IMG/VR virus record: IMGVR_UViG_3300031963_010135
Location: 1 to 54,643 of that record
Direction: 5' to 3' (one strand)
Length of the DNA: 54,643 nucleotides
From: a virus
The notes below the pieces were generated by a model, which was given only the letters and a program-made list of their open reading frames with translations, was not told where the DNA came from and did not search any database. How positions within the stretch are numbered: position 1 is the first letter of the stretch; every line of letters begins with the position of its first letter. Position numbers and translations under genes: made by a program. Below are positions 8,301 through 49,576 of the stretch, one piece after another.

Positions 8301-8647
8301 CTGGTACGTTATATGCGACATCAAAATCATTCGCAATACCACACCCAACTGAAAAAGGTAAACAATTAATTTATGGTTCATTAGAAGGTCCTGAAAATGG
8401 TGTATACCATAGAGGAAAGTTAGTTGGTTCTAATATAATTAATTTACCTGATTATTGGTCGTCATTAGTTGATGTAGACACTATAACAGTTACACTAACA
8501 CCAAACGGAAGTTATCAAAAACTTTATGTTGCATCAATTTTAGATAATAGTGTTACTGTAGGTTCTGAAGATGATGTAACAATAAACTGTTTTTACACAG
8601 TGTATGGTGAAAGAAAAGATATAAAAAAATTAGAAACTGAAATATGA
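5333..8647 (+). CDS. Large fibre protein with YadA-like head repeats and conserved C-terminal domain
   Basis: 1104 residues, almost entirely Gly/Ser/Thr/Asn-rich beta structure. Residues about 440-690 hold degenerate repeats with periodic N and G and a recurring 'IINGR.N.I' unit. Residues about 735-800 hold YadA/Hep_Hag-like repeats (AFGLNTLSSGNGSHSQGY, SHASGSGSTASG, FVHGNNSIASG), a left-handed beta-roll in trimeric adhesins. The module 'C..DLWVTNIHGCSPI' occurs three times (near 5780, 7440 and 8220). The last ~105 residues (FAIPHPTEKGKQLIYGSLEG then PENGVYHRG) match a C-terminal domain shared by many phage fibres. It starts inside the stop of the gp13-like gene. A trimeric host-recognition fibre is the best reading. 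Confidence 0.75.
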   Translation: MGNFFTRPNFEDRQLVQYSGTSITLSGETNIYPTGLLRIQKNPVPGYVATAAGWDGEVVWGPVSGLTWNLSASCNSIINVTQLVACTDSGSTIQITSGGLTLNGGTVQFLDSLSAGTVNDYVLVIDGSGYVKSVPQSSITPIFTGGTGSCIVDLYVTNIHGCSPINIQPTSSDNVYMVMGGGNVMVGGTNPQTKFHISGSTMFNTDIIYQYENDGTTTAPTVVSGFKGNYISMDYGTVGTQAVGYAAINTSSSATSVVALYNNSSAFAQLFVAGSNQIKVNPGPVGPNFYRNKVVLRTGPSGSTAGMVINPGSADPSATLWFEIDGAANMILKGDGASGSGNGFLGLKLNPDGTEMPTANLQIGGTGTTGSFKFIDGNQQSGYVLTSDSGGTATWQAPTGASVVPSPYIFGSPTLSIIPLSGNNTTLSEGSIILGGTGNTISDDSSPLSTIVNGFFNDIYDSDYSLINGGLINVISGQSYNVITNGRQNKIISRSTLTNLSGWKTITNGLQNTINIISGETGHETIINGRQNNILGTSTKYSTIINGDKNVISGSSSGNKHNIILNGETNSINEGNFNFITGQNNRLNESGLSAAFGESNFINNSDYSFIFGFNNKILDANNGVGNSRIILGSNSLISGQTSSVVILGDNITGNSSNTVYVPYLNIKNIGTGSIVFGLGLDANGNVVSGNTGGSGAFTGNTSASCITDLWVTNIHGCSPITIWDQLQYNGSTASTQYSTAFGLNTLSSGNGSHSQGYQTIASGDYSHASGSGSTASGIYSFVHGNNSIASGNTTIVLGSGIIGTEDNTVYVNKLNVKNIGTGPTIFSLGLDTNGNVVSGSTVDNDGSRNVYYVPSGETFNIPFGKQALVVGDLLVDGEITNSGQLVFVNGSIILSGGTYTDNGGDLINYEFEDGSGNSLLNIASLQGVNFTGINTGDTIVWNGTNFVPQVYSQATPFTGNTSASCITDLWVSNIYGCNNNLNITGDTYIAGTLYATSKSFAIPHPTEKGKQLIYGSLEGPENGVYHRGKLVGSNIINLPDYWSSLVDVDTITVTLTPNGSYQKLYVASILDNSVTVGSEDDVTINCFYTVYGERKDIKKLETEI
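7421..7466 (+). repeat. Direct repeat within fibre gene, copy A
   Basis: This 46-nt block recurs at 8201-8246 with one mismatch, exactly 780 nt (260 codons) later. It encodes the TGNTSASCITDLWV module. A more diverged relative lies near 5765-5825. Such in-frame repeats can support module exchange by recombination. Confidence 0.85.
8201..8246 (+). repeat. Direct repeat within fibre gene, copy B
   Basis: Second copy of the 7421-7466 block, with one mismatch and in the same reading frame. It sits just before the conserved C-terminal domain of the fibre. Confidence 0.85.
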
Positions 8648-8658
8648 TAGTTAATTCT

Positions 8659-8698
8659 ATTTTATTTTAAAGAATATTTATTATAAAACAATAAAATG
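8659..8698 (+). promoter_or_regulatory. Late promoter motif with weak flanking inverted repeat
   Basis: AATATTTATT at 8673-8682 ends 13 nt before the ATG at 8696. Arms ATTTTATT (8659-8666) and AATAAAAT (8690-8697) are exact complements, and the right arm runs into the start codon. The arms are all A/T, so this hairpin could be chance. It supports a separate late promoter for the second fibre gene. Confidence 0.4.
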
Positions 8699-10165
8699 GG
8701 TAGAGATATTATAATAAAACCAAACAGAAACACCACGGGTGCTGGTTTAGAACCAGTAATATATTTTAGTGGTGAAACAAATGCTACCATATCCTTAAAA
8801 GTTAATGATGACGGTTCTGTGGTATTTGGTAGTAGTAATGGTGATATTTTAAATATCGGTAACTCTAGTTTATTTGTTGGTGGTTCTATAAATGGAATAC
8901 CAAACGATATTAAATTTGTTGTGACAGGAAATTCTGTTTTTTTTGGTTCTGTTTCAGCCACAACTTTTTATTATGGAGATGGTTCAAAACTAACAGGTAT
9001 TAGTTTAACAGGTATCACAGGTTTACAAAGTGCTTTAGATTTAAAAACAGATTTAACACTTTTTAATTCTCATACTGCAAACACAAGTAATCCTCATCAG
9101 ACTAGTTTTAGTCAGTTAATCACTACAGCTCACACTCACAGTATCTCTGATATAACAAATTTACAAAATGATTTAGATTTAAAAACAGATTTAACACTTT
9201 TTACATCTCATACCGCAAATACAAGCAATCCTCACCAAACTAGTTTTTATCAATTAACAAGTACTGCTCACACTCACAGTATATCAGATATCACGGACTT
9301 AAGTACCCAATTAAATTCTAAATTTAGTATATCTGGTGGTACTGTTAATGGTGATGTTTTAGTATTAGGTAATGTAACAATTTTAGGTTCGGCAACAACC
9401 ATTAATACCGCCACTTTAAGTGTTGCTGACAATGTTGTTACACTAAATTCTAATATAACTGGTGGTACACCATTTCCAGGTCATTCTGGTATTGAAGTTT
9501 TACGTGGTTCAGGAACAACAGCAGCTTTATTATGGGAGGAACAAAACTCACAGTGGGAAGCTGGTTTACATGGAACAACAAAAAGAATTATACTAAAAGG
9601 TGATAGTTTAGCTTTATTAACTTCAGGACATACACACCCCACATCTGAAATTACAGGCTTACAAAGTGCTTTAGATAGTAAACTTAACACTTCTGGTGGT
9701 ACTATAAATGGTGATATTTTAGTTACAGGTTCAGTATCGGCAACAACTTATTATGGTAATGGACAATATTTAACAGGTTTAGTAACTAGTGATTTTTATG
9801 TAACAGGTGGTACATTTAGTAGTGGTACTCTAACCCTTAATAGACAGAATGGTTTGGTAATTGTTACCGGTTTTACTTCTGGTGATACATTTGTTACCGG
9901 TTTTACTTACTCTAATAATAACATAATTTTATCACAAAACCAAGGACAAACACCATTGTCTGTTAACATATCAGTAATGACAGGTTTAACTGTTACAGGT
10001 ATTATTTCCGCAACAACTGTTTATGGTGACGCAACAAATATGACGGCGGGTGATCAACCACCGCTTAGTAATAACAATAAAATAGCTAATACAAATTATG
10101 TTGATTTAGCTGTAGGTACTATATCAGCAACACAAAATTTATTTAATTATTATAATTTCATTTAA
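8696..10165 (+). CDS. Tail fibre protein with HxH repeats
   Basis: 489 residues. Two tandem 46-residue units (from about residue 114) each carry a 'HTANTSNPHQTSF' segment and an AHTHSISDIT segment. A third HTHPTSEITGLQSALDSK unit follows near residue 317. HxH motifs in T4-type fibres bind metal ions along the trimer axis. 'SATTYYGNGQYLTGL' and 'SATTFYYGDGSKLTGIS' segments are common in phage fibre shafts. The C-terminal part has a PPLSNNNKIANTNYVD segment, found in fibres as '.n.iatt.YV...'. No chaperone domain is evident. Host recognition as a homotrimer is inferred. Confidence 0.75.
   Translation: MGRDIIIKPNRNTTGAGLEPVIYFSGETNATISLKVNDDGSVVFGSSNGDILNIGNSSLFVGGSINGIPNDIKFVVTGNSVFFGSVSATTFYYGDGSKLTGISLTGITGLQSALDLKTDLTLFNSHTANTSNPHQTSFSQLITTAHTHSISDITNLQNDLDLKTDLTLFTSHTANTSNPHQTSFYQLTSTAHTHSISDITDLSTQLNSKFSISGGTVNGDVLVLGNVTILGSATTINTATLSVADNVVTLNSNITGGTPFPGHSGIEVLRGSGTTAALLWEEQNSQWEAGLHGTTKRIILKGDSLALLTSGHTHPTSEITGLQSALDSKLNTSGGTINGDILVTGSVSATTYYGNGQYLTGLVTSDFYVTGGTFSSGTLTLNRQNGLVIVTGFTSGDTFVTGFTYSNNNIILSQNQGQTPLSVNISVMTGLTVTGIISATTVYGDATNMTAGDQPPLSNNNKIANTNYVDLAVGTISATQNLFNYYNFI
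9035..9310 (+). repeat. Tandem repeat, two units of 138 nt, in fibre gene
   Basis: Unit 1 (9035-9172) and unit 2 (9173-9310) encode the same 46-residue module with NPHQ and HTH motifs. They differ mostly at synonymous or conservative positions. The period is a multiple of three, so copy number changes would keep the frame. Confidence 0.8.
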
Positions 10166-21347: not shown

Positions 21348-21670
21348 CTGACGCTAACAGTGTTCAGGATATGGGACCAGGTGGTGTCTTAAACCAATTA
21401 CCTAGTTTAAAAGCTACAGCTGATAGTGAAAGAGTAAAATTAACTGTCTTAAATGATTACAAAGATAATAATAATGACAGATATAATGCACAACACCCTA
21501 ATGCTTTAAGTGATATGGATGAAAAAGGTCGTGGTGAAACTAACAACCAAGTAGGTACTAAAACAGACATTATGACCAAAAATACTTTATTATACTCATC
21601 AGGTAATAAGTACAAACCTGGTAACGGAAATGGGTATAATAACATATCATACCCAGAGCAACATTGGTAA
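21317..21670 (+). CDS. Small virion-type protein, unknown function
   Basis: 117 residues, polar, with few hydrophobic stretches: PILTDANSVQDMGPGGVLNQ, then DYKDNNNDRYNAQHPNALS and a Gly/Asn-rich end (GNKYKPGNGNGYNNI). No domain or motif is recognised. It starts inside the preceding gene and ends 19 nt before the endonuclease-like gene's Met, so the insertion did not cut it. Composition suggests a structural or scaffold component. Confidence 0.4.
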   Translation: MPAQTISPILTDANSVQDMGPGGVLNQLPSLKATADSERVKLTVLNDYKDNNNDRYNAQHPNALSDMDEKGRGETNNQVGTKTDIMTKNTLLYSSGNKYKPGNGNGYNNISYPEQHW

Positions 21671-21689
21671 AATAGCACCCAAATTAATT

Positions 21690-22793
21690 ATGAACACAAA
21701 AACATATGATTTTATTAGTAAATCAAAAATAATACATAACTCAAGTTATGATTATTCTTTAGTAGAATATTATAATAATTATACTAAAGTTAAAATTATA
21801 TGTCCAAGTCACGGTGTTTTTGAGTGTACACCCAATAATCATTTAAGTAAGAAAAGTGCTTGTCCATCTTGTGCTAAAAATAAATTATCAAAGTTATTTG
21901 CTAATAGTAAAGAAAATGTGATAAACGGGTTTAAAAAAATACACGGTTATAAGTATGATTACTCTTTAGTTAATTATATAAACACAAACACAAATGTAGA
22001 TATCATATGTCCAATACACGGTAAATTTTCACAAAAACCAAAGTTACATTTAAAAGGTTGTGAATGCCCTAAATGTTCAGATACCAGATCCTCTAAAGAA
22101 ATTTTTATAAATAAAGCAACATCAAAACATGGGTCTAGATATGATTATTCAATGGTTAATTATGTGAACAACTACACCAAAGTAGATATACTATGTAACC
22201 AACACGGTGTTTTTAAACAAAAACCAACTAGCCATATAAACGGTTGTGGGTGTCCTATATGTTATAAAGAAAGTTTATTTCATACTACAGAAGTTTTTAT
22301 TGAATTAGCCAAAAAAGTCCATAAAAACAAATACGATTATAAATACCTTAAATATGTGGATTCAAAAACAAAAGTGGTTATCACATGTCCTAAACACGGT
22401 GAATTCAATCAAAAACCAAATAACCATTTAAACGGTTCTGGTTGCCCAAGTTGTAACACATCTAAAGGTGAATTAATGATTAAGGGTTTTTTAGATGATA
22501 ATTTGATTAATTATATACAACAACACAGTTTTCCTAATTGTAGGTATAAATTACCTTTAAAATTTGATTTTTACTTACCGGATTATAATACATGTATTGA
22601 ATACGATGGTGTACAACACTTTAGACCACATAACTTAGATAAAAGTGGTATCGAGTTCGAAAGGACTAAAAAATGTGACGAAATTAAAGATAATTATTGT
22701 AAAAAAAATAATATAAAACTGATACGTATTAAATATAATGATAATTATGATTTATATGAACTATTTATTAAAAACAATATATCGGTAAGATGA
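21690..22793 (+). CDS. Homing-endonuclease-like protein, four DUF723-type repeats plus PD-(D/E)xK-like domain
   Basis: 367 residues from ATG 21690; longer in-frame starts overlap the previous gene. Four ~60-residue repeats share F..K....H...YDYS.V.Y.N...KV.I.CP.HG.F.Q.P..HL, then C..C. The Cys/His spacing suggests zinc-binding DNA contacts. The C-terminal ~100 residues have KGELMIKGFLDDNLI, KLPLKFDFYLPDYNTCIEYD and GVQHF, then IKLIRI, a layout like the Vsr/PD-(D/E)xK nucleases used by some free-standing homing endonucleases. A second copy is at 48674. It ends in ATGA overlap with the next gene. Mobility is inferred. Confidence 0.75.
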   Translation: MNTKTYDFISKSKIIHNSSYDYSLVEYYNNYTKVKIICPSHGVFECTPNNHLSKKSACPSCAKNKLSKLFANSKENVINGFKKIHGYKYDYSLVNYINTNTNVDIICPIHGKFSQKPKLHLKGCECPKCSDTRSSKEIFINKATSKHGSRYDYSMVNYVNNYTKVDILCNQHGVFKQKPTSHINGCGCPICYKESLFHTTEVFIELAKKVHKNKYDYKYLKYVDSKTKVVITCPKHGEFNQKPNNHLNGSGCPSCNTSKGELMIKGFLDDNLINYIQQHSFPNCRYKLPLKFDFYLPDYNTCIEYDGVQHFRPHNLDKSGIEFERTKKCDEIKDNYCKKNNIKLIRIKYNDNYDLYELFIKNNISVR

Positions 22794-23969: not shown

Positions 23970-25292
23970 ATGAGTCAAATTAAAGTACTGGTAATACCTT
24001 CGGACCGTTCAGGTGTTAGTAAATTTCGTTCAGTGGATCCACACATAAAATTACAAGAATTATTCCCTAAAGAATTTTTTGTTGATATTGTAACAGCTGG
24101 TACTGACGGTATCGACTGGAACGATGAAAATTATCTCAAACAATTTAACATAATACATTTTCATAGAACAATTAGTGATGTTGTTGATGGTAGGTTACAA
24201 CCTGTTTACGGTGAAAAAGTTAAAAACGTTTTTGATAGGTTAAAAAAATATGGCATTATAACCATAATGGATTTAGATGATTATTGGATGCCAGGTCCAG
24301 AACACCCAGTACACGTTATGTTAAAACAAATGAAAATGGACGAATTAATAAAATCCAATTTTGCCGTAGTAGATTATGTTACAACCACAACATCAATATT
24401 TGCCGAAGAAATTAAAAAATACAACAAAAATGTTGTTGTTTTACCAAACGCTATAGACCCTTCAGAACCACAATTTCAAAAGAAAAAAATTAAATCCGAT
24501 AAAAAACTTAGATTTGGTTGGTTAGGTGGTTCTTCTCATTTACATGATTTAGAAATTCTTAGACAAGGTTTAAATATTTGGACTGGCAGTGAAGAAGGAA
24601 AAAATTCTCAATTAGTTTTATGTGGTTTTGATTTACGTGGTAATGTTACAGAAACAAACCCTAATACAGGTGAACAAAAAACAAGAAAAATTTTACCACA
24701 TGAAAGTGTATGGTGCAGATATGAAGAAATTTTTACAAATCATTATAATTCATTATCTAATGATTATAAAAAACATTTATTAAAATATAATCAAGATGAG
24801 GATAATGATTATTCAGATAGTAATGAAACTTACAGAAGAGTATGGACCAAACCTATTACCACATATGCCTCTAATTATAACATGTTTGATGTGTCTTTGG
24901 CTCCTTTAAAAGAAACTTTATTTAATAAAGTAAAATCACAATTAAAGGTTATTGAAGCTGGTTTTCATAAAAAGGCTTTGATAGCTCAAAATTTTGGTCC
25001 TTACACAATTGACTTGGTTAATGTAATTGAATATGGTGGGAAAATTAATGAAAATGGAAACGCTATATTAATCGACTCCAACAAAAACCATAAGGATTGG
25101 TTAAAAGCTATTAAATTTTTATACAATAACCCAGAAATGGTTGATAAAATGGGTGAAAACCTTTATAATACAGTTGTAAAAAGATACCATATCGATGTTG
25201 TTACAAAGTTGAGAGCTGAATTTTATTCCTCAATAGTGAATGGTAAAGAAAAAGAAGTTAAACAATTAGTAAAAGAAACAAATGAAATTTAA
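23970..25292 (+). CDS. GT-B glycosyltransferase, GT4-like
   Basis: 440 residues. Two Rossmann-like halves are visible: an N-terminal half with IHFHRT and TIMDLDDYW segments, and a C-terminal half with LRFGWLGGSSHLHDLEIL, DVSLAPLKETLFNKVKSQLK and VIEAG. The last stretch matches the donor-binding E-x(7)-E region of GT4 enzymes (F.a..sg.kviEag..g). It probably moves a sugar from a nucleotide donor. The region 260-285 is polar and unique. It opens the island without a clear promoter and overlaps the exonuclease by 11 nt. Confidence 0.8.
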   Translation: MSQIKVLVIPSDRSGVSKFRSVDPHIKLQELFPKEFFVDIVTAGTDGIDWNDENYLKQFNIIHFHRTISDVVDGRLQPVYGEKVKNVFDRLKKYGIITIMDLDDYWMPGPEHPVHVMLKQMKMDELIKSNFAVVDYVTTTTSIFAEEIKKYNKNVVVLPNAIDPSEPQFQKKKIKSDKKLRFGWLGGSSHLHDLEILRQGLNIWTGSEEGKNSQLVLCGFDLRGNVTETNPNTGEQKTRKILPHESVWCRYEEIFTNHYNSLSNDYKKHLLKYNQDEDNDYSDSNETYRRVWTKPITTYASNYNMFDVSLAPLKETLFNKVKSQLKVIEAGFHKKALIAQNFGPYTIDLVNVIEYGGKINENGNAILIDSNKNHKDWLKAIKFLYNNPEMVDKMGENLYNTVVKRYHIDVVTKLRAEFYSSIVNGKEKEVKQLVKETNEI

Positions 25293-25992
25293 CATTGAAA
25301 AACTATTATTCTTTGATGTTGAAACTGTATCCAAATATCAAAGTCTTTATGACATGATAGATATTGAATTGGACATGTGGATGAGATATTATGAGTCATC
25401 TAGAAAAAAAGTTACAGATGAGACTAAACTAGATGGTTTAAAAGAAGGTTCAAAAGAGTATTACAATGAAGTTTACAGACAAACAGCGGCATTCTTCCCA
25501 GAATTTGGGAAGGTTGCCTGTGTGTCAATGGCTTTCGTAAATAAAGGTAAAACTAAATTTGATTCTTATTACGGTAAGGATGAATTAGAAATATTAAAAA
25601 ATGTTAGAAATATATTTGACAAAGTAGATAAATTAGATTTCTCACTTTGTGGTCATAGTATTAAAGTTTTTGATATACCGTTTTTAGGTAAAAGATATTT
25701 CATAAACGGTTTAAGACCACCCACAATATTCCCTAATCATGATACTAAACCTTGGGAACTTAAAGTTTTAGATACTAAGGATATTTGGCAATTTGGCAAT
25801 AATTGGTCCTTAGGTTCTTTAGATTTAATATGTTCAGCACTTAATATAGAGTCACCAAAAAATGGTGATGTTAAAGGTGACAATGTAACATCAAGCTATT
25901 GGCTTGATAAACATGAAGAAATAAAAGAATATTGTGAAAGAGATACCAAATCTTTGGTAGATATTATTACGAAATTAAACAATTTACAATAA
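25282..25992 (+). CDS. DnaQ-like DEDDy 3'-5' exonuclease
   Basis: 236 residues. Exo I is FFDVETV (D and E at about 11 and 13), Exo II is LCGHSIKVFDIPFL and Exo III is EYCERDTKSL with the Tyr of the DEDDy class. It resembles ribonuclease-H-fold exonucleases of phage and bacterial repair. It overlaps the glycosyltransferase at its start and touches the dUTPase at its stop, so it is co-expressed with nucleotide metabolism genes. Substrate is not shown by sequence; single-stranded DNA is typical. Confidence 0.85.
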   Translation: MKFNIEKLLFFDVETVSKYQSLYDMIDIELDMWMRYYESSRKKVTDETKLDGLKEGSKEYYNEVYRQTAAFFPEFGKVACVSMAFVNKGKTKFDSYYGKDELEILKNVRNIFDKVDKLDFSLCGHSIKVFDIPFLGKRYFINGLRPPTIFPNHDTKPWELKVLDTKDIWQFGNNWSLGSLDLICSALNIESPKNGDVKGDNVTSSYWLDKHEEIKEYCERDTKSLVDIITKLNNLQ

Positions 25993-26639
25993 TGAGTAAC
26001 GAAATTGAAAATTACATTAAAGAATTATTACACCTTAAAAGTTTAGGTTTGGTAGTTGGTGAAGATGCTGAAGAATTAGATGGTTTAATAGAAAAATTAA
26101 ACCATATAGATGTCGATGAAGAAAATTTAAACCCCAACAATCAGGAATTTAACATACCAATAAAATTTGTTAATACATCTAATAATCCTGATCCTGTTTA
26201 CGCAAAAGACGGTGATTCTGGTTTTGATTTAAGAGCTAACTTTACTAGAACCATTTTTAAAAATGGTCAAAATATAGAGGTTAATCACGAATATGTTATG
26301 AAACCTTTTGAGAGGTCTTTAATACCTACAGGTTTGTTTTTTGAGTTACCTTACGGTTATGAATTACAAATTAGACCAAGAAGTGGTCATTCATTTAAGA
26401 CTGGTTTAATGGCAATTCTAGGTACTGTAGACCGTGATTATAGAGGTGAGGTAAAAGTTATACTTATTAATTTATCTGATAAAGACGTTACGATAGAACA
26501 TGGTGAAAGAATAGCCCAAGGAGTTGTAGCGCCTAGAGTTAGTACAGAATTAGGTAAGTTAGTTAAATTAACATCGGTGGAACAATTAAGTGAAACTGAT
26601 CGTGGTGTAAGTGGTTTTGGCTCAACAGGTAATAAATAA
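25992..26639 (+). CDS. dut: dUTPase with N-terminal extension
   Basis: 215 residues. All five trimeric dUTPase motifs are present: DSGFDLRAN (motif 1), RPRSGHSFKTGL (motif 2/3 with the catalytic region), GTVDRDYRGEVKV (motif 3), GERIAQGVV (motif 4) and RGVSGFGSTG (motif 5). Residues 1-50 are an acidic helical extension not needed for the fold. It hydrolyses dUTP to dUMP and so keeps uracil out of phage DNA and supplies dTMP synthesis. It shares the TAATG junction with the exonuclease. Confidence 0.93.
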   Translation: MSNEIENYIKELLHLKSLGLVVGEDAEELDGLIEKLNHIDVDEENLNPNNQEFNIPIKFVNTSNNPDPVYAKDGDSGFDLRANFTRTIFKNGQNIEVNHEYVMKPFERSLIPTGLFFELPYGYELQIRPRSGHSFKTGLMAILGTVDRDYRGEVKVILINLSDKDVTIEHGERIAQGVVAPRVSTELGKLVKLTSVEQLSETDRGVSGFGSTGNK

Positions 26640-26642
26640 AAT

Positions 26643-27137
26643 ATGTCGGTAGTAGCGGTAAAAATAGGTAAAAATAAAATAACCATAGGTGCTGATAGTA
26701 TATTAGTTAATGGTTATACACAGGAAAAAGATAAACTAGCCAAACTTTTCAAAAACGAATGGATGGTGGTTGGTGATGTTGGTGAAGCACAAGAAGGAGC
26801 TTTATTCCAAATTTTTTCTAAGACAAGGAAACCTAGGGAGGCCTCGGTAGAAGCTATAACAGAATATTTATTCGATTTTTTTCAATGGAAAAGGGAAAAA
26901 ACTGATGCCGATAAATTAGAAAATAGTTATATTATTATATTTGAAAGTAAGGCATTTTTAGTAGAAGGTTTTTATGTTAAAGAAATAACAGATTATGCCG
27001 CAATTGGTGCGGGTATGGATTTTGCTTTGGCCGCTTTATATTTAGGTTCTTCAGTTAGTGACGCCATTAAAACAGCATGTCATTTATCAATACTTTGTGA
27101 AGAACCAATAAACATAATAGAAGTAGAAAAGAAATGA
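26643..27137 (+). CDS. HslV-like proteasome-family peptidase with Ser as the N-terminal nucleophile
   Basis: 164 residues. The start SVVAVKIGKNKITIGADS, then KDKLAKLF, matches the opening of HslV (TTIVAVR...GGD...K..KV..L). Numbering from Ser after Met removal gives Ser1, Asp17 and Lys33, the HslV catalytic positions with Thr1 replaced by Ser. The segment AIGAGMDFALAALYLG matches the HslV 'GSGG.fAlaAA' signature. No HslU partner is in the window. It could form a ring peptidase acting in prohead maturation or protein turnover; this is inference. It overlaps the next gene by four bases. Confidence 0.8.
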   Translation: MSVVAVKIGKNKITIGADSILVNGYTQEKDKLAKLFKNEWMVVGDVGEAQEGALFQIFSKTRKPREASVEAITEYLFDFFQWKREKTDADKLENSYIIIFESKAFLVEGFYVKEITDYAAIGAGMDFALAALYLGSSVSDAIKTACHLSILCEEPINIIEVEKK

Positions 27138-28690
27138 TTAGCATAGTATACTCAACAAGGACCCCAAATAAACAATTCCAAGACCATATTAAGAAAACGA
27201 TAGGTGTTAAAGATTATGAGATTGTTGAAATTGTTAATAACGGTGAAAAATCACTAACCCAATGTTACAACCACGGTTTAGATGTTACAAAAAATAATAT
27301 AACCGTATTCTGCCATGATGATATTATATTAAGTGATAATTGGGGTAAGAAGGTGGTTAAACATTTTGAAAATACTGATTTCGGTATTTTAGGTAAAGCA
27401 GGTACAACTGATATACCTAGTATTGGTAGGTGGTGGGAAGATACGACTAAAATGATAGGTATTGTTTCACACTCACATGAAGGTAGAACTTGGGAAAATA
27501 GATACTCTTCTAATTTTGAGGGTGATGTGATAGAAACTGTAATGTTAGATGGTCTTTTCTTTGTAGTACATAAAGAACGTATTAAGGAAAGATTTGATGA
27601 GAATATTAAAGGTTTCCATTTTTATGATATAGATTTCACGTTTAATAACCACTTAAATGGTGTTAAAGTTGGTGTTATGTTTGATTTCAAGATAACACAT
27701 AAATCTATAGGTATGACTAATGATGAGTGGGAAAAAAACAGATTACAGTTTGCTGAAAAATATAAGGATAAATTACCATACAATATCGTACCTGAAATAA
27801 AGGTAGACTTTAAAGAGGTAAAACTAAAAGAAACACCTAAGATTAGTGTTATTATACCAACAAAAGGTAATGTCCATCTACTTAAACAATGTATAAATTC
27901 TATAGTAGAACAAAACCCATATGATAATTTAAAAGTATATATAGCCGATACAGGATCTACCCCAGAAGAAAAGGAAGAAATAAAATCAACTTATGGTATT
28001 TTCAATAAAATAAAATTGATTGAGTATGATTTTTATAATTTCGCTGTTATCAATAATGACGTTGTGGAAAACCACGTAGATAAAGACACTGAATTGTTGT
28101 TGTTCTGTAACAATGACATAAAGGTTATAAACAACGCTATATCCAAAATGGTTGATGTTTATTTAAAGAATAAAAAAACTGTTGGGACTATTGGTGCTAG
28201 GTTACATTTCGGTGATAATACAATACAACATTCAGGTATAATAATGTTCTTAGACCAAAACAGACAAATAAGATTGTCACACCATGGATTAAGGTCTTAT
28301 TATTCATACCATAAAGAAATGACTAGGGATGTTTTTGGTAATACAGCAGCGTTTATGATGATGAGTAAGAAACTATTTGACGATATTGGTGGTTTTAACA
28401 CATCTTATAGGGAATGTTTTGAAGACGTTGAATTAAATATAGAGTGTATTAATAGAGGTAAAGAAAATATTTTTGTTGGTGACGCTGTTTGTTATCATTA
28501 TGAAAGTCAGACTAGAAATAAGAGTGAAGAAAAACTTAAAAAAGAAGGTGAAGACTACACAAAAAGGTTAATACCTTTTATTATTAACAATAAGAAAAGT
28601 TATAATTATTTTAACAACGTTAAAGCCAAAGACTTTGAAATGTTGTTACAACAAGCAATGAAAAATAATGAAGTTAGGAATTTCGTATAA
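27134..28690 (+). CDS. Two-domain GT2-type glycosyltransferase
   Basis: 518 residues. The first domain (1-~225) has ISIVYSTRTPNKQF, TVFCHDDIIL and FHFYDIDF, like the family 2-related domains that act on capsule or teichoic acid. The second (from about 236) has ISVIIPTKGNVHLLKQCINS, ADTGS and LLFCNNDIKV with a DxD-like NND, then FEDVELNIE near the acceptor end. Two active sites could add successive sugars. The genes on either side overlap it, so it is translationally coupled to the peptidase and the next transferase. Confidence 0.8.
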   Translation: MISIVYSTRTPNKQFQDHIKKTIGVKDYEIVEIVNNGEKSLTQCYNHGLDVTKNNITVFCHDDIILSDNWGKKVVKHFENTDFGILGKAGTTDIPSIGRWWEDTTKMIGIVSHSHEGRTWENRYSSNFEGDVIETVMLDGLFFVVHKERIKERFDENIKGFHFYDIDFTFNNHLNGVKVGVMFDFKITHKSIGMTNDEWEKNRLQFAEKYKDKLPYNIVPEIKVDFKEVKLKETPKISVIIPTKGNVHLLKQCINSIVEQNPYDNLKVYIADTGSTPEEKEEIKSTYGIFNKIKLIEYDFYNFAVINNDVVENHVDKDTELLLFCNNDIKVINNAISKMVDVYLKNKKTVGTIGARLHFGDNTIQHSGIIMFLDQNRQIRLSHHGLRSYYSYHKEMTRDVFGNTAAFMMMSKKLFDDIGGFNTSYRECFEDVELNIECINRGKENIFVGDAVCYHYESQTRNKSEEKLKKEGEDYTKRLIPFIINNKKSYNYFNNVKAKDFEMLLQQAMKNNEVRNFV

Positions 28691-29450
28691 TATTTGGGAC
28701 GGGGAAGAATTACTAGAAGGTTCAATAAAACAAATTAGAAACCTAGTAGATTACGTAAGTGTTGTATATCAAACAACATCTAACTTTGGTAATCCATGTG
28801 ACTCAGGGTTGGTACCATTATTGGAAAGATTAAAATCAGAGGGATTAGTCGATGAATTATTCGAATACTCACCAAAAGTTAATAAAGGTGGTCACTCTAA
28901 TGAAACACATAAAAGAAACATAGGTTTAGCCTTATCACAGGGAGCAGGGTGTACACATCACATGTCTATGGATTCCGATGAGTATTATTTACCGTCAGAG
29001 TTCGAATATATGAAAAATAAAATGATAGAGGGTGATTATGATTCATCATATTGTCAAATGCAGACTTACTATAAGTCTTGGGAATACTCTCTGAACCCAC
29101 CTGAAGAATATTATGTTTCACTTATTTTTAAAATTAAACAAGATTCTTCCTATATTATAGGTGCACCAGCCCCGGTATTAGTTGACCCAACTAGAAGGAT
29201 GTCACCTAGTAATAACCCTTTAATATTAAAAAGAGGAGAAATACAAATGCATCATGGATCATACATTAGAGATAATATACGAACAAAACTAACAAATAGT
29301 TCAGCCTCTGTCAACTTTAATAAGGATATTGATAGAATCGTTGAACATTACAATACTTGGTCCTACCCGAATAAAGTATTATGGGGAGGACTACCAAGTA
29401 CATTACATAACGTAAAACAAGTTAAAAACCTATTCAATGAAAATAAATGA
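28668..29450 (+). CDS. GT-A-type glycosyltransferase (GT2/GT92-like)
   Basis: 260 residues. It begins LGISYNIWDGEELLEGSI, a nucleotide-sugar-binding opening, and has HMSMDSDEYYLP, a DxD-like metal-binding site. A later HHGSYIRDN segment carries a His near the acceptor region. The gene overlaps the previous one by 23 nt and the next by 14 nt. It probably acts on the same glycan as its neighbours. The exact family assignment is not certain from motifs alone. Confidence 0.65.
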   Translation: MKLGISYNIWDGEELLEGSIKQIRNLVDYVSVVYQTTSNFGNPCDSGLVPLLERLKSEGLVDELFEYSPKVNKGGHSNETHKRNIGLALSQGAGCTHHMSMDSDEYYLPSEFEYMKNKMIEGDYDSSYCQMQTYYKSWEYSLNPPEEYYVSLIFKIKQDSSYIIGAPAPVLVDPTRRMSPSNNPLILKRGEIQMHHGSYIRDNIRTKLTNSSASVNFNKDIDRIVEHYNTWSYPNKVLWGGLPSTLHNVKQVKNLFNENK

Positions 29451-48542: not shown

Positions 48543-48644
48543 ATGGGAAGACCACAAAAAAAACAAGTTAAATTAAATACCGAAAGTTTTTTAGGCATAA
48601 CTCAGGAAAGTTATAGTACAAATAAAATTGGGTTATGGTGGTAA
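48543..48644 (+). pseudogene. Truncated N-terminal paralogue of the 49549 gene
   Basis: A 33-residue frame opening MGRPQKKQVKLNTESF aligns without gaps to the start of the 49549 gene (MARPTKKKIELTKQSF): 11 of the first 24 residues are the same, including Gln-Glu-x-Tyr near position 21. It then ends in a divergent tail and a stop. The copy retains a late promoter motif. It looks like a remnant left after the second endonuclease-like gene entered. Confidence 0.65.
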
Positions 48645-48658
48645 AAAACCATTTACCT

Positions 48659-48668
48659 TATATTTATA
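48659..48668 (+). promoter_or_regulatory. Promoter-like motif before the second endonuclease-like gene
   Basis: TATATTTATA lies 5 nt before the ATG at 48674 and touches an alternative ATG at 48668. The spacing is not the usual 13 nt, so the site is only a possible promoter. Confidence 0.25.
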
Positions 48669-48673
48669 TGTAT

Positions 48674-49576
48674 ATGCCTAAAAAATTAACAACATATGAT
48701 TTCATAAATAAGGCAAATAAAATACACCATAATGTGTATGATTATTCTTTAGTTGATTACGTTAACACAAATACTAAAGTTAAAATAATATGTAACATTC
48801 ATGGTGTTTTCGAACAACGTCCATGTTCACATATAAAACAAAAACACGGATGTCCTTATTGTGCTAAAAATAAAAAGTTATCTACAGAGGTTTTTATCCG
48901 TGAGGCTAAAAAAATACATAAAAATAAGTACGATTATTCTTTATCTGAATATGTTGATTGTTGTTCTACTAAAATAAAAATTATATGCCCAAATCATGGT
49001 ATTTTTGAACAAAGATCGTGTGATCATCTATTGAAAAAATGTGGGTGCCCACATTGTAGTAATAACCAAAAACTAACAACTAATATTTTCATAGATAGAG
49101 CAAATAAAATACATAATAATAAATTTGACTATTCATTAGTGGATTATGTGAATTCACATAAAAAAGTATTTATTATATGCCCAAATCATGGTATTTTTGA
49201 ACAAAAACCATATAGCCATTTACAGGGTTTTGGATGTAAAATGTGTAATGTATCTAAGGGTGAACTGAGGATTAAAAAAATTTTAGAAGAAGAAAAAATT
49301 AAATATATACAACAACACAGTTTTCCTGATTGTAAAAATAAATTCCCTCTAAAGTTCGATTTTTATCTACCAAAACTCAACGTATGTATTGAATATGATG
49401 GGTATCAACATTTTCAACCTCATTGGGGTGATCATAGTGGTAAAAATTTTATTAAAACCAAAGAAAGGGATGAAATTAAAAATAAATACTGTACAGAAAA
49501 TAATATTAAATTAATTAGAATTACTGATACGAATATAAATAACGAATTATGGCTAGACCAACTAAGAAAAAAATAG
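48674..49576 (+). CDS. Homing-endonuclease-like protein, three DUF723-type repeats plus PD-(D/E)xK-like domain
   Basis: 300 residues from ATG 48674. Three ~60-residue repeats show F..KA.KIH...YDYS.VDYVN...KV.IIC..HG.F.Q.P..H followed by a C..C pair. The C-terminal domain (KGELRIKKILEEEKI, KFPLKFDFYLPKLNVCIEYD, GYQHFQP, KLIRI) closely parallels the 21690 protein, and the stretch encoding 'YIQQHSFPDC' is nearly identical at DNA level. It has one repeat fewer than the first copy. It overlaps the next gene by 28 nt, so it sits directly at that gene's start. Confidence 0.75.
   Translation: MPKKLTTYDFINKANKIHHNVYDYSLVDYVNTNTKVKIICNIHGVFEQRPCSHIKQKHGCPYCAKNKKLSTEVFIREAKKIHKNKYDYSLSEYVDCCSTKIKIICPNHGIFEQRSCDHLLKKCGCPHCSNNQKLTTNIFIDRANKIHNNKFDYSLVDYVNSHKKVFIICPNHGIFEQKPYSHLQGFGCKMCNVSKGELRIKKILEEEKIKYIQQHSFPDCKNKFPLKFDFYLPKLNVCIEYDGYQHFQPHWGDHSGKNFIKTKERDEIKNKYCTENNIKLIRITDTNINNELWLDQLRKK

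Follow-up and report, generated by a model that had tools for sequence, protein, structure and literature searches.

A gene in the window, the whole 54,643-nucleotide stretch of phage DNA analyzed here, encodes a protein with a confidently predicted proteasome-beta fold in which residue 1 is serine and alanine occupies the position of proteasome Ser129. We propose, with a probability of about 0.6, that its product is a proteasome-like N-terminal serine peptidase that acts during infection without a dedicated ATPase, probably as a ring. The fold, the Ser1-Asp17-Lys33 triad, and the oxyanion glycine place the protein among the proteasome-like Ntn hydrolases in the broad sense of Fuchs, Alva and Lupas 2021 (PMC8665760), whose family definition requires neither peptidase activity nor ring assembly. 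Because phage proteasome homologs and Ser1 have both already been published, neither is new; a fixed Ser1 together with the loss of the Ser129 equivalent in a large-phage lineage was not found in the literature examined.

The gene, its relatives, and profile searches

The open reading frame (ORF) at positions 26643 to 27137 (plus strand) is real, and it encodes 164 amino acids, or 163 after Met removal. The stop codon of the dUTPase gene, a TAA at 26637 to 26639 (plus strand), lies in the frame of this ORF two codons before the ATG, with AAT as the sole codon between them. A longer N terminus or a propeptide is therefore impossible, and the ATG at 26643 is the earliest possible start, so that the serine encoded at 26646 to 26648, the predicted nucleophile, would be mature residue 1 if Met is removed. 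In this numbering Asp17 (26694 to 26696) and Lys33 (26742 to 26744) fall on the catalytic positions, where the original prediction had placed them from the DNA, and alignment puts Gly46 (26781 to 26783) at the position of proteasome Gly47 in the oxyanion hole; all four codons are on the plus strand.

A scan of viral contigs yielded 32 loci, 30 of which were translated to give 20 distinct proteins with identities down to 49%. The original prediction had staked itself on conservation of the triad in close relatives; Ser1, Asp17, and Lys33, together with Gly43 and Gly46, are invariant in the alignment of all 20. These proteins, referred to here as the Ser1 clade, begin with MSVVA throughout and share a signature near the C terminus, CEEP[IV]NI (27096 to 27116, plus strand). 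Two of the loci (L041 and L052) encode a one-residue insertion and retain Lys33 once aligned. When the alignment is widened to 52 phage sequences, Asp17, Lys33, Gly43, Gly121, and Gly123 are still invariant, with Asp17 and Lys33 unchanged across all sequences compared, and Gly46 is invariant in the Ser1 clade, the PPH-like rows, and Escherichia coli HslV. Among relatives of the gene, pS was 0.50 to 0.75 versus a pN of 0.014 to 0.23, which indicates strong purifying selection. Across 13 relatives, the window protein (median identity of 68%) is conserved to about the same degree as the DNA polymerase (69%) and more so than the adjacent dUTPase (49%).

The PHROG 1040 profile, “peptidase HslV family,” matched the window protein over its full length (E value of 8.7e-19) as well as 14 of 14 relatives tested. 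By the curated HslV model TIGR03692, however, the protein does not class as HslV, scoring 15.6 bits against a cutoff of 157.75. A profile of the clade compared with E. coli HslV alone gave a probability of only 4.9%, and the link to HslV therefore rests on the fold and the PHROG match. A Pfam search with the window protein returned zero matches, including to the gp21 prohead protease family, PF03420. Matches in a sequence search of the PDB were attributable to chance and were mostly to designed repeat proteins, and those to NCBIfam acyl-CoA ligases covered short stretches far below the cutoffs; both were set aside. In GTDB genome contigs, searched with the clade alignment and the 49%-identical relative, no cellular homolog was confirmed. 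The PHROG 1040 match, the invariant residues, the fold, and the purifying selection together exclude a family resemblance by chance.

Predicted fold and a missing relay serine

The Ntn-hydrolase fold that the original prediction supposed was borne out by an AlphaFold2 model built from 52 sequences (mean pLDDT of 93.6, pTM of 0.89), which superseded a shallower first model (pLDDT of 79). Foldseek matched this model to 1,118 PDB chains at an E value of ≤0.001, the best 50 of which were BPH, proteasome subunits, and HslV. BPH held the top ranks (TM of 0.85 to 0.87, E value of 3e-11), followed by proteasome subunits and HslV, with HslV chains at a TM of about 0.67 to 0.75. The description “HslV-like” thus holds in the sense of a proteasome/HslV-type Ntn hydrolase and fails in the narrower one, as the protein falls short of the curated HslV model and its closest solved fold is BPH. 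Helices are modeled at residues 49 to 58 and 69 to 86, and the next strand begins at 95, leaving an H2-S7 loop of only about 8 residues. Both helix pairs used by proteasome-type rings are present in the model, which, with the BPH-like fold, suggests ring assembly.

The original prediction had also likened one segment to the GSGG region of HslV. The segment, AIGAGMDFALAA, does align with that region; its motif serine, however, is alanine in every clade member. This residue, Ala122 (27009 to 27011, plus strand; Ala in 20 of 20), occupies the position of proteasome Ser129 and of the HslV GSGG serine. Outside the clade the aligned position holds Cys, Ser, or Thr, with other residues rare, and one MTCI-type sequence (L182) likewise reads GAG.

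The replacement of Thr by Ser at residue 1, a further claim of the original prediction, extends to the whole clade, although it is precedented: Ser1 has been reported in one Anbu, in Bacillus subtilis CodW, and in every BPH from outside Betaproteobacteria (PMC5777263). Among the other phage proteins translated, residue 1 was Thr in all 67 distinct MTCI-type proteins, for which the search pattern left the N terminus untouched, and in all 63 distinct PPH-like proteins, for which the search partly used an MTTIA pattern and so favors Thr. In a maximum-likelihood tree of phage homologs, built without BPH sequences, the Ser1 clade formed one group (support of 100/98) adjoining the MTCI group (98/93). 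The homolog of Tenacibaculum phage pT24, which has Ser1, lay on a long branch inside the Thr1 MTCI group (96/94), implying that Thr and Ser have been exchanged at least twice. At the Ala46 position, the Ser1 clade has Val, Cys, or Ser, most PPH-like proteins have Ala, and most MTCI-type proteins have Thr; as a speculation, Val might fill the space of the absent Thr methyl group.

In the mechanism that we infer, from Met removal and activity to ring assembly, ATP independence, and substrate, a methionine aminopeptidase would take off Met1 and expose Ser1. Lys33, held by Asp17, would deprotonate the Ser1 hydroxyl, which would then attack the scissile peptide bond, with the Gly46 region providing the oxyanion hole. 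Subunits would most likely form a BPH-like ring. Such a Ser1 is chemically competent, since yeast proteasomes carrying beta5-T1S retain about 55 to 60% of wild-type activity (PMC4792962). In the proteasome, a second relay, Ser129/Asp166, protonates the N-terminal amine (PMC4792962); because this relay lacks its Ser here, slow turnover or a specialized enzyme would be expected, and its loss could mean weak or nonpeptidase chemistry.

An intact active site is no guarantee of proteolysis, because BPH was inert on standard substrates, even though its Thr1 reacted with epoxomicin (PMC5777263), and no peptidase activity was detectable for Yersinia bercovieri Anbu. These inactive relatives, along with the missing relay serine, would fit a relic that has lost catalysis and serves a structural or regulatory role. 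We regard such a relic as very improbable, as the nucleophile, the Asp, the Lys, and the oxyanion Gly are all invariant under strong purifying selection. A specialized amidohydrolase or acyl-transfer enzyme built on the proteasome-beta fold, rather than a protease, deserves more weight and is still rather unlikely. Connectase, a protein ligase, illustrates that the fold can be turned to ligation (PMC8665760); both Ser1 and the Ala that replaces the GSGG Ser are fixed in the clade, which suggests altered chemistry; and the adjoining genes encode nucleotide and sugar enzymes. Against it, the Asp17-Lys33 pair and the oxyanion glycine are intact, and the model has both ring helix pairs while lacking the S3/S4 insertion of connectase, with only a short hairpin at that site.

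Gene neighborhood and other proteases of the phage

The original prediction described a run with exonuclease, dUTPase, and glycosyltransferase genes, and Pfam matches and synteny confirm it. Upstream lie the DNA polymerase gene, a 3′-5′ exonuclease gene (DNA_pol_B_exo2; 25282 to 25992, plus strand; PF10108, E value of 4.1e-10), a neighbor conserved by synteny, and the dUTPase gene (25992 to 26639, plus strand; PF00692, E value of 2.2e-25), present in 31 of the 32 loci. Downstream is a glycosyltransferase block, the first gene of which (27134 to 28690, plus strand; PF13712 and PF00535; downstream in 30 of 32 loci) overlaps the stop of the peptidase gene by 4 bp. The gene marks the boundary between a conserved block and a variable sugar block. 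Synteny was retained in 31 of 32 loci; at the exception, L051, the gene adjoins a MazG-like gene (8507 to 8914), recognized by eye.

Several further features of these loci were observed. As an anecdotal pattern, proteasome-like phage genes repeatedly lie near genes of nucleotide metabolism: dUTPase in the window, MazG-like in L051 and Ochrobactrum phage OC, dCMP deaminase in SCTP-2, and thymidylate synthase in EPS7. Within the glycosyltransferase block, conservation is highest in a protein with no Pfam match (28668 to 29450 of the window), which occurs in 8 of 13 relatives at a median identity of 81%. Another window ORF, at 21630 to 22793, had no match in the 13 relatives at 60% coverage and is likely a recent insertion; its CPxHG motifs recur and resemble those of the HNH/homing endonuclease encoded at 48635 to 49576. 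In Vibrio phage henriette (L072, 133 to 630), a peptide deformylase gene lies three genes before the proteasome-like gene; the removal of Met that exposes residue 1 requires prior deformylation. Two different proteasome-like genes stand in tandem in Aeromonas phage 2L372D (L111; 601 to 1152 and from 1170): an MTCI-type gene and a PPH-like gene whose product is extended at its C terminus.

The window is identical to a 318-kb contig, G001, over 16,492, 14,884, and 14,760 bases, that is, across all three long stretches compared, with about 8.5 kb of the window outside the comparison; we therefore treat the two as the same phage. The phage has no close isolate, as the nearest DNA polymerases of cultured phages (Salinibacter, Nostoc, and Anabaena phages) are only about 24 to 30% identical. 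G001 encodes a gp21-type PF03420 protease separate from the window gene, a ClpC-like ATPase of 842 amino acids with the loop TGVGYGTK, and ClpP. Among ten records of the lineage, PF03420 was found in seven, ClpP in seven, and a ClpC-like protein in five. The Clp genes lie at about 110.5 to 115 kb and 227.5 to 230 kb of G001:C1 (L280 and L282) and are likewise present in G002 to G004 and G006; the ClpC-like ATPases of the lineage, 826 to 845 amino acids long, form with ClpP a complete-looking Clp protease. Escherichia phage 121Q (L115), a jumbo phage with both kinds of protease, has a ClpP-like gene two genes before its HslV-like gene.

These genes bear on two other roles. The original prediction had offered the window protein as a possible prohead protease for capsid maturation, and it is indeed a predicted peptidase, encoded by a phage as a core gene of the lineage. 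The separate gp21-type protease in the same phage, the occurrence of PF03420 in most of the lineage records, and the position of the gene among replication and nucleotide genes, away from the head genes, leave this role with almost no probability. The protein might instead supply the peptidase to an ATP-dependent machine, recruiting the host HslU or the ClpC-like unfoldase that the phage itself encodes, much as CodW, the Ser1 HslV of B. subtilis, depends on its ATPase, CodX, for activity (PMC5777263). No HslU scored over the curated cutoff in any of the ten lineage records, in agreement with the original prediction that no HslU-type ATPase is nearby, and the low score against the HslV model also argues against such a partnership. 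General AAA searches of five lineage genomes gave the ClpC-like protein as the only evident unfoldase, the rest being weak matches. The ClpC-like proteins carry a V-G-Y/F loop of the ClpP-binding kind; with such a loop and with ClpP encoded alongside, ClpC already has a partner. An ATP-dependent machine thus appears unlikely, though still a serious alternative.

With a prohead protease and a ClpC/ClpP pair both encoded separately, the window protein most likely has another role, and because no dedicated unfoldase is visible in the phage, the proposed serine peptidase would probably cleave peptides, unstructured proteins, or specific proteins independently of ATP. More tentatively, a Ser1 ring that lacks the Ser129 relay and is kept as a core gene beside the phage's own ClpC/ClpP and gp21 might have moved past general proteolysis to specific cleavage, deamidation, or ligation on one infection-specific target, an idea that we consider improbable as it stands.

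The use of threonine instead of serine by true proteasomes has long called for an explanation. The Ser1 clade amounts to a natural experiment on this question, in which phages already equipped with ClpC, ClpP, and a prohead protease have fixed both Ser1 and Ala122 under strong selection. The yeast T1S mutant is active yet falls short of wild-type efficiency (PMC4792962), with the Ser129/Asp166 relay presumed to contribute. The phage gene offers a small protein for direct tests of Thr versus Ser and of whether the second relay is needed; it also points to a conserved yet unexplained step of large-phage infection.

Comparison with known systems

Fuchs, Alva and Lupas 2021 described the phage proteasome homologs PPH, AAH, and CPH, named the triad Thr1/Ser1-Asp17-Lys33, and found no AAA+ partner (PMC8665760). 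HslV and CodW share with the window protein the fold, the triad, and an AIG-x-G segment, and CodW also shares Ser1 (PMC5777263). They differ in that the window protein falls far below the HslV model cutoff, has Ala in GSGG, and comes from a phage with no HslU over the cutoff. PPH-like proteins are likewise phage encoded and have a similar AIG(S)G..YALAAMY segment (profile E value of 4.5e-10 over 122 columns). PPH, however, is about 140 amino acids long and lacks helix H2 (PMC8665760), whereas the window protein has two long helices there, and PPH-like proteins have Thr1 where the Ser1 clade has Ser.

The MTCI phage proteins (for example, those of T5-like EPS7, 121Q, and Vibrio phage henriette; about 175 to 200 amino acids; PHROG 1040) probably correspond to the AAH proteins of Fuchs, Alva and Lupas 2021. 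They resemble the window protein in fold family, length class, and Asp17/Lys33, with a full-length profile match (E value of 1e-15). In contrast to their Thr1-Cys2 start, the Ser1 clade has Ser1-Val2 throughout and forms a separate, well-supported clade; the GSGG position in MTCI-type proteins is mostly Cys or Ser, and the Gly46 position is mostly Ser or Thr. The pT24 homolog (L116), the sole other Ser1 phage homolog encountered, begins with MSTII; unlike the window protein, it retains GSG and has 198 amino acids.

BPH (Thiobacillus and Cupriavidus; PDB 5OVS, 5OVT, and 5OVU) differs from the window protein in retaining a GSGG-type Ser139 where the latter has Ala122 and in its pore loop, which joins H2 and S7 and is long and acidic rather than short (PMC5777263), and the two are only about 14 to 19% identical. 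BPH is nevertheless the best structural match (TM of 0.87), and it shares with the window protein the lack of a dedicated unfoldase and, outside Betaproteobacteria, Ser1 (PMC5777263).
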